Positions 16,591-26,815 of a stretch of DNA of 64,000 bases are shown here, piece after piece (positions within the stretch are counted from its first letter, which is position 1; each line of letters starts with the position of its first letter). The DNA is from Candidatus Xianfuyuplasma coldseepsis (GTDB lineage: Bacteria; Bacillota_I; Bacilli_A; Izemoplasmatales; Izemoplasmataceae). The DNA lies in contig NZ_CP048914.1 in the NCBI RefSeq assembly GCF_014023125.1, forward strand, positions 1,454,698 to 1,518,697, given 5' to 3'. The notes beneath the pieces were generated by a model, which did no database searches, was not told the origin of the DNA, and saw only the letters and a list, made by a program, of their open reading frames with translations. Position numbers and translations under genes: made by a program.

Positions 16591-17829
16591 TTATATGATA
16601 ACACGATAGAGGAAGAATAAGAAGATTACAAAGAATAATAATGCGTTCAACAACTTGATGGTTGCCATGTGTTCCCGTACCCAGTTACTAATCGATACAA
16701 CACTTTTAAGTTTTACTGCCGTAATAGCAATGACGATAAGTGGCATCACAAACATCACGTTATAAAAGAGTAATAAAATATACGCATATCCACCGGTATC
16801 CATCGAATGAATACCATAGAGAATTCCGAAGTAAATTTGTCCAGTACAAACGAGCTCGGTTACACTGAGGGTAATACCGAGAAGGAACGTAATCACTAAA
16901 ACGGTTACCAATCCTTGTTTGTTATCCGTGTTCATTGCACCGGTAAACAGTTTGACTATTTTTTTGTTATATCGTTGTAACCACTTTGGAAGTTGGTTTT
17001 TAATTTTTCCATATTCTTCGTTTCGAGCTTGGAAGTAATCGTATAAATTAAATAGAAATAAGAACAAACACAAGAATAGGACAAAATAATTAATAATCGT
17101 ACCGATAACGCTAATCTCTGATGCGTATTGTTCAAGGACATTAAGAAAGAACGTACCAATCAGGAAGTACGATAGGAATAAGGCAAATATGTAGACAACA
17201 CTCACCAATATTAAAACGCGTTTATCATCGGTAAATCCAAGTAAGCTAATGAAAAGTAATAGTAAGGCAATTGCACAAGGATTAAATCCATCGAGAAGTC
17301 CTGCCCCTAAAACTAGTAAGAAACCGAGAAAACCAGTTAATTCTTCATAAGCTTGTCCTTCTTCGACTGTAATATCCAATATCGGATCACTGCTCAGTGC
17401 GAGAATTGCACCACTGTCATACGCTGCTTTGATGTCGTCGGCATCTTCAAAATAGGTATCGCCAACAAAGACAACTGGAACGGTTCCTGAACTTCGATCA
17501 TAGGCATCGTTAAATGCGGCAAATACATCAATGGCAGTGACGTTAACGAGTTCACCTTCGGTATCGATATAGGAATATTCGTCGATGACTGGATTGGCTT
17601 CAATATCATAAATGATGACGGTTATACCAGCATTTTCCATTATGGTAATGTAATCCTCACTTGCAGTGTAATCACCGCTAAGACCATTCATATACCCTTG
17701 TAATTCAGCACAGTTTCGACAACTGGTTTCCTTGAAGTAAATGACTGTTTGGCTCTCTGCTTGGACAGAAGTTGTAACCTGCAATACCATCAGAATAAAT
17801 GCGATAAGGAGTAATTTTAGTGATTTCAT
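16591..17829 (-). CDS. CcdA/DsbD-like membrane protein with N-terminal thioredoxin-like domain
   Basis: A 412-residue protein in three parts. There is a signal peptide (LLLIAFILMVLQVTTSVQA), then an outer domain of about 140 residues with a redox motif SCRNC near residue 35 and TVPVVFVGD typical of a thioredoxin/glutaredoxin cis-Pro loop. About six membrane helices follow. Helix 1 has DGFNPCAIALLLLFISLLG and a later helix has ELVCTGQIYFG, matching the paired cysteines of CcdA and the DsbD core, which pass electrons across the membrane. The likely role is reducing extracytoplasmic thiols. ATG 17829 is preferred over GTG 17838, which lies in the ribosome site. It heads the desulfurase operon. 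Confidence 0.8.
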   Translation of the reverse strand: MKSLKLLLIAFILMVLQVTTSVQAESQTVIYFKETSCRNCAELQGYMNGLSGDYTASEDYITIMENAGITVIIYDIEANPVIDEYSYIDTEGELVNVTAIDVFAAFNDAYDRSSGTVPVVFVGDTYFEDADDIKAAYDSGAILALSSDPILDITVEEGQAYEELTGFLGFLLVLGAGLLDGFNPCAIALLLLFISLLGFTDDKRVLILVSVVYIFALFLSYFLIGTFFLNVLEQYASEISVIGTIINYFVLFLCLFLFLFNLYDYFQARNEEYGKIKNQLPKWLQRYNKKIVKLFTGAMNTDNKQGLVTVLVITFLLGITLSVTELVCTGQIYFGILYGIHSMDTGGYAYILLLFYNVMFVMPLIVIAITAVKLKSVVSISNWVREHMATIKLLNALLFFVIFLFFLYRVII

Positions 17830-17868
17830 GATGGGCACTTCTTTCGTTTAGTTTTATATTCTAACCTT

Positions 17869-21809: not shown

Positions 21810-22307
21810 ATGAACGATGTCATTGTCGGTGTAATTGTCAATACACACGGACTAAAAGGAACTTTGAAAGTCAAATCCTTCACGGACTTTAAAACGATAC
21901 GATATCAACAAGGAGCAACGTTGTATATTGTTTTTCGTGATGAAAAAATACCGGTTACGGTGGATTCATTTCGAACGGTAAAAGGATTGGACTATCTGGA
22001 TTTTAATGAGTTTAATGACATCAATCAATGTGAACAATACAAAGGATGCAATTTGGTGATTTCCGAAGACCAACTACATGAACTGGATGACGATGAATAT
22101 TATTTCGATGAGTTGATCGGAATGGATGTTGTCTGTGACAGTTTTACGGGAACGGTCACAGATGTTCGTGAAGTTCCTCGAGGAGAACTCCTCGTTGTCC
22201 AAGCAAATGGAAAACAGCATTTGATACCGTTTCAAAAAGAGTTTGTCAAACATGTTGATAAAGACAAGGGCATTATTACGCTCATTGCATGGGAGGGGTT
22301 ATTATGA
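21810..22307 (+). CDS. rimM: Ribosome maturation factor RimM
   Basis: A 165-residue 16S-processing protein. It has an N-terminal beta-barrel (VGVIVNTHGLKGTLKVKSFTDF) and a C-terminal PRC barrel (YFDELIGMDV, PRGELLVVQ, LIPFQKEFVK). It binds S19 and assists 30S head assembly. AAGTAGGTGTTTT precedes the ATG. Its TGA overlaps the trmD ATG by four bases, the usual coupling. Confidence 0.95.
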   Translation: MNDVIVGVIVNTHGLKGTLKVKSFTDFKTIRYQQGATLYIVFRDEKIPVTVDSFRTVKGLDYLDFNEFNDINQCEQYKGCNLVISEDQLHELDDDEYYFDELIGMDVVCDSFTGTVTDVREVPRGELLVVQANGKQHLIPFQKEFVKHVDKDKGIITLIAWEGLL

Positions 22308-23005
22308 GAATTGATATCTTAACGTTATTCCCCAACATGTTTTCTGGGTTCTTAGAAGAAAGTATAATGAAACGTGCCATCGACGCAAAATTAGTGGACA
22401 TTCACATCATTGATTTTCGTGAGTTCAGTACGTCGAAACATAAAAAAGTGGATGATTATCCCTATGGTGGTGGTGCGGGGATGGTACTTCAAGTGCAACC
22501 GGTATACGATGCTTTACGAAGTATAAAAGGATATCGTGAAGCCTTGAAAATTATTGTATCGCCACAAGGGGTTCCCTTCACACAACCAATAGCCTATGAA
22601 TATTCATCTCATGATCACATTATTATATTGTGTGGTCATTACGAAGGATATGACGAACGGATCCGTTCGTATTTTGACGTTGAACTATCCATTGGTGATT
22701 ATGTGTTAACTGGAGGAGAACTCGCTGCGATGGTATTGGTTGATGCGATTACACGTGTGGTCCCAGATGTCATCAATAACGATGAATCACATATTCATGA
22801 TTCGTTTAATAATCATTTGTTAGAGCATCCGCATTACACCCGTCCACGTGAATTTGACGGCCAAGAAGTACCTGAAGTCTTGGTTAATGGACACCATCAA
22901 AAAATCGAAGAATGGCGATTGCAACAATCGCTTGCAAAAACAAAGAAACGTCGCCCTGATTTATATAAGAAGTATCTGGAGGACAAGAACGATGAAACGA
23001 CCTGA
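22304..23005 (+). CDS. trmD: tRNA (guanine37-N1)-methyltransferase
   Basis: A 233-residue SPOUT methyltransferase that makes m1G37 in tRNAs, preventing frameshifts. The start MRIDILTLFPNMF, the knot elements ILCGHYEGYDERI and SIGDYVLTGGELAAMVLVDA, and the late NDESHIHDSF are all diagnostic. ATG 22304 is preceded by GGGAGGGGTTATT; an ATG at 22289 lies within rimM. The last 14 bases overlap the arylsulfotransferase gene, which is not normally the neighbour of trmD. Confidence 0.96.
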   Translation: MRIDILTLFPNMFSGFLEESIMKRAIDAKLVDIHIIDFREFSTSKHKKVDDYPYGGGAGMVLQVQPVYDALRSIKGYREALKIIVSPQGVPFTQPIAYEYSSHDHIIILCGHYEGYDERIRSYFDVELSIGDYVLTGGELAAMVLVDAITRVVPDVINNDESHIHDSFNNHLLEHPHYTRPREFDGQEVPEVLVNGHHQKIEEWRLQQSLAKTKKRRPDLYKKYLEDKNDETT

Positions 23006-24989
23006 GTGGATTCCAAAATGGGTTAATGAAACCTTTTTATTGGTTGTTATGCCGGCGATTGTAGTCGTCCTTTTAATCACGGGATTTATGATTTATGGGT
23101 TTCAAAAACCTGCATGGACATCGATTGAATCAAAGACCGTGCTTCTCGATACACAACAAGAGACCAATGCTATGTTGATTGATGTTGCAATGAGTGAAAC
23201 ATATAGCGTTGATCAACCATATTTCATCATAGATCCCTATAAAATGTCACCCCTAAGTGGGTTGTTTATATTTAAAACGGATGAGTTGGATTCCTTTATT
23301 ATTGAAGTGGAAGGGAAAACACCAGAAGCAACCGTTCAATACGTCAGTGAAGTTGCATCGGTTCATTACATTCCGGTGATTGGGCTCTATCCGGATTATG
23401 AAAATGTTGTTCATATCTATGATAATGATGATGGTGTAGCGGGAGCGTTACGATTCACTCGAACCATATGGACTGAGCCTGTTGATGAATACGTATTTGC
23501 ACCGGATGAGGTAACAACAACGACGGATTATTTTGGTCAAGATTGGATGCTGTTAATGCCATCGGATCAAGAGACGTTACCAGTAGCAATCGATGCCTTT
23601 GGCGATGTTCGGTGGTATTATTCTACACCCTTAGGATTTTCTATGAAACAACTGGAGAACGGATATTTCATGGTTGGATCCAGTCGAATGATTGGATCAC
23701 CCTATTACCGTGATGGATTATACGAAATTGATTTATTAGGTAAGGTCATTAGTCACTATTATATCCCTGGTGGGTATCATCATGATTTTGTCGAGATGCC
23801 CAGTGGTAATATTTTAGCATTGAGTAATGATTTTGATGAAACCGTAGAAGATATTGTAGTGGAAATAGATCGATCTACCGGAATGATTGTCAATCAATGG
23901 GACATGAGTGATTATGTTTCACCGACGATGGGACAACGTAGCAACAATAGCGAAGTGGATTGGTTCCATGCAACATCGATCGATTATGATCCAGTAGCGA
24001 ATCGTTTGTTAGTCGCCGGTCGAAATCAAGATATCGTACTATGTATTGATTTGACAAGTGATGAATTGGTGTATATTATTGGCGACCCGACAAACTGGGA
24101 TGAGGATGTTGTCACAGACGATTTCTTAACACCGATTGGCGCGTCCTTTGAATGGTCCTATGCAATCCATAGTGCTTTATTTTTACCAGATGGCCAAGTG
24201 ATGTTATTTGATAATGGTTTACATCATTCGAAAGATCTATTAATCGATCCCCTAACATATGGTAATTACAGTCGTGGTGTCGTGTATGCTATTGATGAAA
24301 CAACTCGAGAAATCACCCAAGTGTTCAGTTATGGTTCCGAACGATTAAGTACGTTTTACAGCCCATTCAACTCGAATGTAGCCTATTATGGTGAAAATCA
24401 CTATTTGGTTCATAGTGGTGGAATATCCCAAACATCACAAGGATATCTAAACATACCACCTAGTGAATATGATGGTGAGTTATCCTTCACAAAGTCCTCA
24501 ATCACAGTGGAAGTACAAGATGATGTCGTCGTGTATGAACTACAAATGCCGGCGCATTACGATCAAGCGTTGCGAATCCAACCATATGACAATATCCAAC
24601 ATCAATCTCGGTTGGTGAAGTTTTATGGGGAACAACAAGTATCTTTCTTATATGAACAGGATATTGATCGTCGAATCACGATTCTACAGACATTACCACC
24701 GACATACGAATTATTAATATACAAGGAATTTGATCGATTTGTTGTATCGGGTGTTTTTGAAGACAATCAAGAAGTGTACCTCGAACTTCAACAAGGAGAA
24801 CAATCCTATTATTACGCGATGCCATTATCTCAATCGATACGTTATCCACTGTATCATCAAGAGGTTGATGGTGAAAACTTACGGACAATTGTCACTGTAA
24901 ATGAGATTGATGTATCTGGTCGATTTGACGTGTTTGTAATCATCGATGGCCATCGCTATCATACATACAAACAAGTTACATTTAAGTGA
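22992..24989 (+). CDS. Membrane-anchored arylsulfotransferase-family (AssT-like) protein
   Basis: A 665-residue protein with a short cytosolic N-terminus and one membrane helix at about residues 14-36, leaving the rest outside. The middle is a six-bladed-propeller-like ASST domain: HHDFVEMPSGNILAL (His 263/264), DWFHATSIDYDP (His 326) and AIHSALFLPDGQVMLFDNG (His 393). These resemble the active-site histidines of E. coli AssT, where the catalytic one is His 436. AssT moves sulfate between phenolic sulfate esters and phenols. A C-terminal region of about 150 residues is unassigned. GGAGGACAAGAACG precedes ATG 22992, which overlaps the trmD end. The longer reading from 22848 is inside trmD and rejected. 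Confidence 0.78.
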   Translation: MKRPEWIPKWVNETFLLVVMPAIVVVLLITGFMIYGFQKPAWTSIESKTVLLDTQQETNAMLIDVAMSETYSVDQPYFIIDPYKMSPLSGLFIFKTDELDSFIIEVEGKTPEATVQYVSEVASVHYIPVIGLYPDYENVVHIYDNDDGVAGALRFTRTIWTEPVDEYVFAPDEVTTTTDYFGQDWMLLMPSDQETLPVAIDAFGDVRWYYSTPLGFSMKQLENGYFMVGSSRMIGSPYYRDGLYEIDLLGKVISHYYIPGGYHHDFVEMPSGNILALSNDFDETVEDIVVEIDRSTGMIVNQWDMSDYVSPTMGQRSNNSEVDWFHATSIDYDPVANRLLVAGRNQDIVLCIDLTSDELVYIIGDPTNWDEDVVTDDFLTPIGASFEWSYAIHSALFLPDGQVMLFDNGLHHSKDLLIDPLTYGNYSRGVVYAIDETTREITQVFSYGSERLSTFYSPFNSNVAYYGENHYLVHSGGISQTSQGYLNIPPSEYDGELSFTKSSITVEVQDDVVVYELQMPAHYDQALRIQPYDNIQHQSRLVKFYGEQQVSFLYEQDIDRRITILQTLPPTYELLIYKEFDRFVVSGVFEDNQEVYLELQQGEQSYYYAMPLSQSIRYPLYHQEVDGENLRTIVTVNEIDVSGRFDVFVIIDGHRYHTYKQVTFK

Positions 24990-24998
24990 TTTTTATCC

Positions 24999-25027
24999 TT
25001 GCAATTCAAATAGTGCTATGCTATAAT
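24999..25027 (+). promoter_or_regulatory. rplS promoter
   Basis: TTGCAA (24999-25004), 17 bases, TATAAT (25022-25027). Confidence 0.75.
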
Positions 25028-25033
25028 AATTAC

Positions 25034-25110
25034 CGCTGTTAAATCTATATACAATTGCTCCGCTTTGGAAAATCCTTATGAGCAAGTGTTCAATCAAAAG
25101 GAGTGATATC
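25034..25110 (+). promoter_or_regulatory. Candidate L19 autoregulatory leader
   Basis: The rplS leader of about 75 bases contains TTGCTC (25055-25060) pairing with GAGCAA (25080-25085), enclosing a small GGA/TCC hairpin, then a conserved-looking TGTTCAAT just before AAAGGAGTGAT. A structured leader of this size before rplS fits the L19 leader known in Firmicutes. Identity is inferred without a covariance model. Confidence 0.45.
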
Positions 25111-25458
25111 ATGTCTCAGCAATTATTACGAGAAATTACAAGTGACTATCAAAAGACTGATGTACCAGATTTCCAAGCCGGAGATACTGTCAAAGTATCG
25201 GTTAAAATTCGTGAAGGAAATCGCGAACGGATTCAGATTTTTGAAGGATTGGTTATCAAACGTCAAGGTGGCGGCATTGGTGAAACTTTTACTGTTCGTA
25301 AAGTATCATACGGTGTTGGTATTGAGCGTACATTCCCAATTCATTCGCCACTTGTAGACGACATCAAAGTTGTCCGTCGTGGTAAAGTCCGTAGAGCACG
25401 TTTGTTCTATATCCGCGGTCTTTCAGCAAAACGTTCTCGAATCAAAGAAAAACGATAA
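25111..25458 (+). CDS. rplS: 50S ribosomal protein L19
   Basis: A 115-residue ribosomal protein L19, seen from [43 protein letters not shown] split over its core, and [22 protein letters not shown]. It sits at the 30S-50S interface. ATG 25111 follows AAAAGGAGTGATATC; the earlier ATG at 25078 has no ribosome site and lies in the leader. It has its own promoter and a terminator, so it is separate from the trmD operon. Confidence 0.96.
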
Positions 25459-25601: not shown

Positions 25602-26603
25602 ATGAGTAAAGCAACAATCTATGATGTTGCTGGAGCTGCTCGAGTCAGCTTAGCTACTGTTTCAAGAGCCATTAATAATCCGGAAAAAGTAAAACCTGAA
25701 ACCCGTGAGCGTGTGTTGCGTGTTATTGAGGAATTGGGATACAAACCAAATGCCTTTGCCAAGGGGCTTGCAAGTCGTAAAAGTACAACCGTTGCTGTTG
25801 TTGTACCAGATATGAGTCGGGCATCGATTGCCGAAATGATGAATGGTATCGCCGATATTGCTCGGGTGTATAAGTATTCGATTTTGCTGTATGTTTTAGA
25901 GAGTGAAGACGCTAGTGAAGAAGATATTTTGCGAGAAATTATTGCTGCCCAAGTCGATGGGATATTGTACTTGAATGATGAAATTACATCACCACAATAT
26001 GAATTTCTTCGCACGATCAAAAATACCTATCAGATTCCTGTCGTGTTAACCAATACGTTCTACCCAGAAGATGATGAAATTCCATCTGTTTCGATTGATT
26101 ACGAACGCGCTGGATATGAAATTACCAAGAAGTTATTAGACGAAGGTCGGAAACACATCTACATGGTTTCAACCGTACGTAAATACATGGTAAATGATTT
26201 GAAGGAAGCAGGTTATTTACGCGCTATGAATGAATCTGGATTAGAGCCAAAAGTGATGCGAACAAGTGGGCGTATTTCCATTAACACCGAACACTTTAAC
26301 GAGTACTTCAAAGACAATAAAGTCGATGGTGTCATTGCGGTTCGCGATTCGATTGCGATTAGCTTTATGAATGTGGCATTTGAAAATGATGTACGGATTC
26401 CAGAAGACATTGGTGTATGCGGATTCCAAAATACAAAATATGCTCGATTAGCACGACCTCAATTATCTTGTGTCGATTTACCAATTTACGACATGGGTGC
26501 AGTGGGAATGCGTTTATTAACAAAATTAATGAACAAAGAAGAAGTAACTGATCGTGTAATTAAATTACCACACAGTATCGTACTTCGTAAAACAACCTTA
26601 TAA
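25602..26603 (+). CDS. ccpA: Catabolite control protein A (LacI/GalR family)
   Basis: A 333-residue LacI-type regulator. The N-terminal helix-turn-helix is TIYDVAGAARVSLATVSRAIN and the hinge helix is PNAFAKGLASRKS; a periplasmic-binding-like core follows. The late segment RPQLSCVDLPIYDMGAVGMRLLTKLMNKE closely tracks Bacillus CcpA, as does TVAVVVPDMSRASIAEMMNGI. CcpA with HPr-Ser-P binds cre sites to control carbon metabolism. ATG 25602 is preferred over a GTG at 25593 that lies in the GAAGGTG ribosome site. cre-like sites lie at its own promoter and before pfkA. Confidence 0.88.
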   Translation: MSKATIYDVAGAARVSLATVSRAINNPEKVKPETRERVLRVIEELGYKPNAFAKGLASRKSTTVAVVVPDMSRASIAEMMNGIADIARVYKYSILLYVLESEDASEEDILREIIAAQVDGILYLNDEITSPQYEFLRTIKNTYQIPVVLTNTFYPEDDEIPSVSIDYERAGYEITKKLLDEGRKHIYMVSTVRKYMVNDLKEAGYLRAMNESGLEPKVMRTSGRISINTEHFNEYFKDNKVDGVIAVRDSIAISFMNVAFENDVRIPEDIGVCGFQNTKYARLARPQLSCVDLPIYDMGAVGMRLLTKLMNKEEVTDRVIKLPHSIVLRKTTL

Positions 26604-26607
26604 CAAA

Positions 26608-26815
26608 ACGACGACAAAGACGAGAATATCAAGTGTTTATTTGTAGAGACTTAGTGGCTGGTGAAAACTAAGATAAACCGATATGTATACCCTTTGGAGT
26701 GCCTTGTGAAAAGCACGGCCGGTAATTCCGTTATCATGAATGAGTGCTAGAGAAATCTAGAAATAAGGTGGTACCACGGACTTACAAGTTCGTCCTTTTC
26801 CGAGGACGAACTTTT
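26608..26815 (+). promoter_or_regulatory. T-box riboswitch, tyrosine (specifier UAC)
   Basis: The T-box bulge AAGGTGGTACCACGG is at 26765-26779. The terminator is a 10-bp stem (26786-26795 with 26804-26813) followed by T run; the T-box sequence can compete for it as the antiterminator. In stem I, ATATC/GATAT pairs below the terminal loop, and three bases after it comes TAC at 26688-26690, a Tyr codon, as expected before tyrS. Uncharged tRNA-Tyr should turn on transcription. No separate promoter is obvious between ccpA and the leader. Confidence 0.93.

Follow-up and report, generated by a model that had tools for sequence, protein, structure and literature searches.

Why should a gene for a sulfate-transferring enzyme lie between trmD and rplS, among genes for tRNA modification and a ribosomal protein? 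The question is raised by Xianfuyuplasma coldseepsis zrk13, a free-living bacterium that lacks a cell wall and has been cultured from a deep-sea cold seep (PMC8397711). Its genome is a single contig of 1,958,905 bp with one copy of the gene. Its close relatives, as found in the contig scan, carry the label Candidatus Izemoplasma. The gene lies in the 64,000 nt stretch of DNA analysed here (the window, to which positions refer unless another contig is given). A preliminary description, made from the sequence, had proposed a membrane-anchored arylsulfotransferase (ASST) that is active outside the cell and is unexpectedly translated with tRNA-modification genes.

The gene and its product

The open reading frame is real. 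It has 665 codons with no internal stop, is preceded by its own GGAGGA site and shares exactly 14 nt with the end of trmD, as had been described, and it is placed with rimM and trmD on its 5′ side and rplS on its 3′ side (Table 1). A chance ORF or a pseudogene was ruled out, the gene being intact in 11 genomes; chance is excluded because the frame occupies the corresponding position in ten further genomes, at 28–42 % identity. Elsewhere in the window, on the reverse strand (16591–17838), there is a gene for a membrane protein whose N-terminal part contains a thioredoxin-like CxxC segment (ETSCRNC) and which, by eye, has CcdA-like helices; it has no Pfam match at 0.001 and is retained near the ASST gene in the carriers.

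Membership of the ASST family, which had been suggested by eye, was borne out by a highly significant profile match, to Arylsulfotrans (PF05935, residues 175–524, E=5.8e-75; score 253 bits, cut-off 24.2). The Ig-like N-terminal domain of these enzymes (Arylsulfotran_N, PF17425) was matched at residues 79–148 (E=1.3e-12), and both families were matched by all 52 members of a wider alignment; an NCBIfam search gave no family for the 665-residue protein. The best PDB sequence match was Escherichia coli AssT (3ELQ), with E=7.5e-19 for the single sequence and 2.1e-51 as a profile. In an AlphaFold model built from 52 sequences, with a mean pLDDT of 90.5, residues 13–38 form a helix and strands make up most of what follows, and Foldseek placed AssT entries at the top (E~1e-28; 3ETS, E=6.5e-29, TMt 0.64), the N-terminal β-sandwich and propeller resembling 3ELQ. 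The predicted transmembrane helix agrees with the earlier view of a membrane-anchored, extracytoplasmic protein, presumably held by this one helix with the remainder outside the cell. By homology the gene product belongs to the PAPS-independent ASST family, and by predicted topology it is membrane-anchored and extracytoplasmic.

Table 1. Features of the trmD–ASST–rplS region of strain zrk13 (positions in the window)
Feature	Position	Strand	Basis
trmD, full length, PF01746, upstream neighbour of the ASST gene	22304–23005	+	ORF list, Pfam
GGAGGA ribosome-binding site of the ASST gene, inside trmD, ATG 8 nt on	22978–22983	+	Read directly
ASST-family gene, 665 aa, ATG start, first 14 nt overlap trmD	22992–24989	+	ORF, Pfam, PDB search
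N-terminal transmembrane helix, residues 13–38	23028–23105	+	AlphaFold helix and hydrophobic sequence; membrane insertion inferred
N-terminal Ig-like domain PF17425, residues 79–148	23226–23435	+	Pfam
β-propeller catalytic domain PF05935, residues 175–524	23514–24563	+	Pfam, AlphaFold, Foldseek
His264, equivalent to AssT His252, kept	23781–23783	+	
His326, equivalent to AssT His356, kept	23967–23969	+	
Thr328, replaces AssT Asn358 (Asn in 67/67 Bacilli relatives)	23973–23975	+	
Arg344, equivalent to AssT Arg374, kept	24021–24023	+	
Ile392, replaces AssT Gln435 (Gln in 67/67 relatives)	24165–24167	+	
His393, equivalent to AssT His436, nucleophile, kept	24168–24170	+	
Asn460, position of AssT Thr501 (Ile in 67/67 Bacilli relatives)	24369–24371	+	
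C-terminal β-sandwich domain, residues 530–665, without Pfam family, common to Bacilli ASSTs	24579–24986	+	
Arg617; relatives outside the trmD-linked clade all have Cys here (68/68); loop shortened in zrk13	24840–24842	+	
rplS promoter TTGCAA-17-TATAAT, extended −10 TG; present before rplS in all 30 family genomes examined	24999–25027	+	
rplS leader stem TTGCTC...GAGCAA, compensatory changes in relatives	25055–25085	+	
rplS (L19), downstream neighbour	25111–25458	+	

Gain and loss of the gene after trmD

Relatives were found by an alignment-based scan of contigs; a scan with the single sequence gave none. The synteny check that had been suggested for trmD–rplS showed the order trmD–ASST–rplS in 11 genomes of the family, zrk13 included, the other ten being spread over five genera, and wherever the contig extends far enough the order is rimM–trmD–ASST–rplS–lacI–tyrS. 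Among 30 rplS loci of the family, the ASST gene precedes rplS in nine; in 20, among them that of a same-genus genome, rplS comes directly after trmD, a short spacer apart; and one has neither gene before rplS. In a housekeeping tree built from RimM, TrmD, RplS, the LacI-type regulator and TyrS, all carriers fall within one clade of 16 genomes (support 100/100). Five changes, one gain and four losses, explain the pattern of presence and absence; the change count alone cannot decide between gain and loss, but the emptiness of the outgroups does. In the ASST tree, too, a fully supported branch separates the trmD-linked sequences from the rest, and none of 67 ASSTs of other Bacilli lies beside trmD, rimM or rplS.

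All 30 rplS genes are preceded by a promoter of the form TTGnnn-17-TATAAT (TATACT in three) with an extended −10 TG, about 101–117 nt before the start codon. The ASST gene is therefore appended to the rpsP–trmD operon and stands after one transcription unit but ahead of the promoter of the following one; in the spacer that separates it from rplS no terminator-like site was found. A leader stem (TTGCTC...GAGCAA or TGTTC...GAACA) is also present before rplS in 30 of 30 family genomes, and the segment at 24999–25110 is possibly an autoregulatory leader for L19. A search of Rfam at E<=1 gave no leader upstream of rplS, the only match being a T-box. This T-box leader lies upstream of tyrS (26602–26800, 111 bits).

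These results bear on the part of the question that concerns position. A role connected with m1G37 modification of tRNA or with ribosome assembly might have been read from the overlap with trmD, which probably couples translation, and from the conserved position. However, the gene arrived in a single gain, at the operon's 3′ end and ahead of an independent promoter for rplS, and was lost in several genomes in which trmD and rplS are still adjacent; many genomes have trmD and rplS unchanged without it, relatives elsewhere are not near trmD, and the protein is predicted to be extracytoplasmic. On presence and absence, promoter and topology the link was rejected, and we regard it as highly improbable. 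The ASST gene is thus probably translated with housekeeping genes because of its location, not its function. No description of an ASST gene in this operon position, after trmD, was found in the open-access literature searched.

Active site

The active-site residues of AssT are His252, His356, Asn358, Arg374, His436 and Thr501; the roles of His436, which is the residue sulfated in AssT, of Asn358 and of Arg374 have been described, and the residues are reviewed as conserved in all characterised ASTs (PMC13426309). These positions were mapped through HMMER alignments, with chain numbering equal to that of the literature. The three conserved histidines that had been pointed out are indeed kept in zrk13 (H264, H326 and H393, for H252, H356 and H436), and the counterpart of His436, whose loss would have spoken against the assignment, is among them.

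The further claim, that the three histidines indicate an active enzyme, was borne out in part: the histidines and Arg344 are kept, but Asn358 has become Thr and Gln435 has become Ile. Thr, like Asn, can donate a hydrogen bond. In 67 loci of other Bacilli, ranked by similarity to the window protein, positions 263, 264, 326, 328, 344, 392 and 393 are without exception H, H, H, N, R, Q and H. The patterns used to search for relatives permitted N or T at 328 and omitted 392 and 393, so the invariance at these three positions was not made by the search. Thr501 is not defining for the Bacilli branch, since position 460 is Ile in all 67.

The trmD-linked copies differ among themselves. The active site is intact in six of the 11, L016 among them, and altered in five. 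The zrk13 copy has N328T and Q392I; the others have H393N, N328T and R344S (L023/G040), H393N, H263Y, H264G, N328T and Q392P (L017/G002), H393T and R344K (L021/G027), and H393S, H263S, H264G, H326K and R344Q (L019/G012). The nucleophile is therefore gone from four of the 11 syntenic orthologues (N, N, T and S), all with complete ORFs; His to Asn is the mutation that was used to trap substrate in an AssT crystal (PDB 4P05). On the ASST tree these losses need at least three changes, the carriers without a nucleophile having intact sisters or differing replacements. To take three conserved histidines as a sign of an active enzyme is therefore too strong, because Asn358 and Gln435 are changed and four syntenic orthologues are without the nucleophile. 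With Asn358 replaced, membership of the family by homology stands, whereas membership of the catalytically proven set does not follow. Neither members of the family without the nucleophile nor ASST pseudoenzymes were found described in the open-access literature searched.

C-terminal domain

Residues from about 530 to 665 form a β-sandwich in the AlphaFold model. The earlier statement that the last 150 residues match nothing familiar holds in that no Pfam family matched the C-terminal ~140 residues, but the sandwich is also present in ASSTs of gut Bacilli and is therefore common to other Bacilli members of the family. Against PDB the fold gave zero matches under E=0.001, the best (0.006) being to parts of glycosidases, starch-binding or Ig-like sandwiches; scattered Pfam matches near E=0.001 in the C-termini of some members were judged to be due to chance.

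A cysteine in a YTALC-type loop, at position 617 of the window protein, is found in 68 of 68 relatives outside the trmD-linked clade and is the sole cysteine of several of these proteins; this loop region is modelled with low confidence. The loop is kept in all six intact trmD-linked copies and in L023, and lost in four of the five altered copies (the window copy, L017, L019 and L021). It is suggestive, from these alignments, that Cys617 and an intact active site go together.

Rates of divergence

End branches of the ASST tree were compared with those of the housekeeping tree under a fixed topology and the same model. The ASST/housekeeping ratio is 3.2–6.0 (median 4.5) for the intact copies and 4.1–10.2 (median 7.3) for the altered copies, with zrk13 the highest at 10.2. 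The difference is modest and weak (one-sided Mann–Whitney p=0.04, 11 genomes) and the comparison is post hoc, the residues having been seen first. The window protein has changed at 32 of 109 invariant propeller columns, and its active-site changes therefore match its overall divergence and are not clearly targeted.

Interpretation

We favour, with moderate confidence, an account in which the gene was gained once after trmD, activity is eroding in several lineages and the zrk13 protein is a weakened or re-specialised enzyme. An ancestor of the sub-clade of Izemoplasma relatives acquired the gene once, in a place after trmD, at the end of the rpsP–rimM–trmD transcription unit, with which it would be co-transcribed, and just upstream of the separate promoter of rplS. 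The ancestral protein and the six intact orthologues would most likely carry out ping-pong sulfuryl transfer through a sulfated histidine (His393 in zrk13), the donor being a phenolic sulfate and the sulfuryl group being passed to an acceptor outside the cell. In several lineages this sulfo-histidine chemistry would be undergoing loss or alteration. In zrk13 the sulfuryl-coordinating Asn has given way to T328 and the adjacent Gln to I392, with the Cys loop of the C-terminal domain lost, and the protein may be heading toward a non-catalytic role. Judged by its residues, it is probably weakened or re-specialised.

An ordinary active ASST of altered specificity, in which T328, I392 and the loss of the Cys loop have altered how donor or acceptor is bound, with His393 still passing through the sulfo-His state, is possible but somewhat doubtful. 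An active enzyme with changed specificity would also fit the full-length ORF, its start and Shine–Dalgarno sequence and the intact nucleophile, two other histidines (H264 and H326) and Arg344, and the fold is predicted with confidence. Elsewhere in the genome (C1:988909-989901, L150) lies a gene for a sulfatase-family protein whose CLPSR motif is typical of formylglycine sulfatases, and sulfate-ester metabolism is therefore possible; three other sulfatase-family matches have no CLPSR-type motif in the longest frame of the locus. Set against this, Asn358 and Gln435 are invariant in 67 of 67 relatives, the site is conserved in characterised ASTs (PMC13426309), and zrk13 has the fastest relative branch of the set. 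A non-catalytic surface protein, the propeller and two sandwiches serving as a scaffold for binding or adhesion on a wall-less cell while an unneeded site decays, would account for complete ORFs without the nucleophile in four of 11 syntenic orthologues, for the rapid divergence and for the repeated loss of the gene; however, all active-site residues are kept in six of the 11 and the nucleophile is present in the window copy, and this explanation appears unlikely for zrk13.

Returning to the account of a single gain with eroding activity, the trmD-linked ASSTs could tentatively be seen as a series of independent conversions from sulfo-histidine enzyme to surface pseudoenzyme, with at least three nucleophile losses in one family and zrk13 as an intermediate. 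Intact, partly altered and nucleophile-less orthologues at one genomic position are a set in which roles other than sulfuryl transfer can be probed.

A split TrmD in a same-genus genome

In the same-genus genome G002 the trmD gene before ASST is incomplete. Piece A (L017:8488-9000, reverse strand) is an ORF of 165–170 aa in which 47 of the 52 invariant N-domain residues are present but the C-terminal domain is missing (1 of 25 residues), its stop codon lying 8 nt inside the ASST reading frame. Piece B (L158:1486-2097, reverse strand; 203 aa) has 25 of 25 invariant linker and C-domain residues but, of the 52 in the N-domain, only 11. G002 has no further trmD-like match, and a pair of this kind was not encountered in the other genomes of the family or order. 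In TrmD, whose C-terminal domain is swapped, the active site lies at the subunit interface and takes residues from two monomers (E116, R154 and D169; PMC1829167); the dimer binds two SAM and one tRNA (PMC9508554). Jointly A and B hold exactly one full active site, with the E116 region in A, D169 in B and R154 in both. The complementary divergence of the two pieces makes misassembly unlikely, although the sequence comes from a metagenome assembly. Their residues suggest that the pair probably forms an obligate heterodimer that evolved from the homodimeric TrmD; no report of such a heterodimer was found in the open-access literature searched. If true, this bears on SPOUT dimers that use one of two active sites.

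Comparison with known systems

AssT of E. coli CFT073 (3ELQ, 3ETS, 4P05) has the same fold of N-terminal β-sandwich and propeller, at about 18 % identity (Foldseek). The zrk13 protein has the equivalents of His252, His356, Arg374 and His436, and differs in Asn358 to Thr, Gln435 to Ile and Thr501 to Asn. E. coli AssT is soluble and periplasmic, whereas the zrk13 protein is predicted to be membrane-anchored and has an additional C-terminal domain. AssT has a disulfide, whereas the zrk13 protein has one cysteine in all and thus no disulfide-forming pair; unlike the AssT–DsbL–DsbI arrangement, no DsbL or DsbI genes adjoin its gene.

The ASSTs of gut Bacilli (Onthousia, Coprovivens and Holdemania among them; 67 loci) have the same layout of transmembrane segment, N-sandwich, propeller and C-sandwich, at 28–38 % identity. 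Among 68 Bacilli loci (L047–L119), an XRE-HTH protein with a membrane segment is encoded upstream in 40 and a thioredoxin-like protein downstream in 17, possibly a regulator and a redox partner; no papers on Bacilli ASSTs with thioredoxin partners were found in the open-access literature searched. Unlike zrk13, the gut Bacilli keep the whole active site and the Cys of the YTALC loop, and their genes are not beside trmD. The Cluster II ASTs of Firmicutes, such as that of Desulfitobacterium hafniense, are PAPS-independent ASSTs with the same catalytic His (PMC13426309); by the description in that review, on which the comparison rests, their site is conserved, whereas two positions are altered in zrk13.
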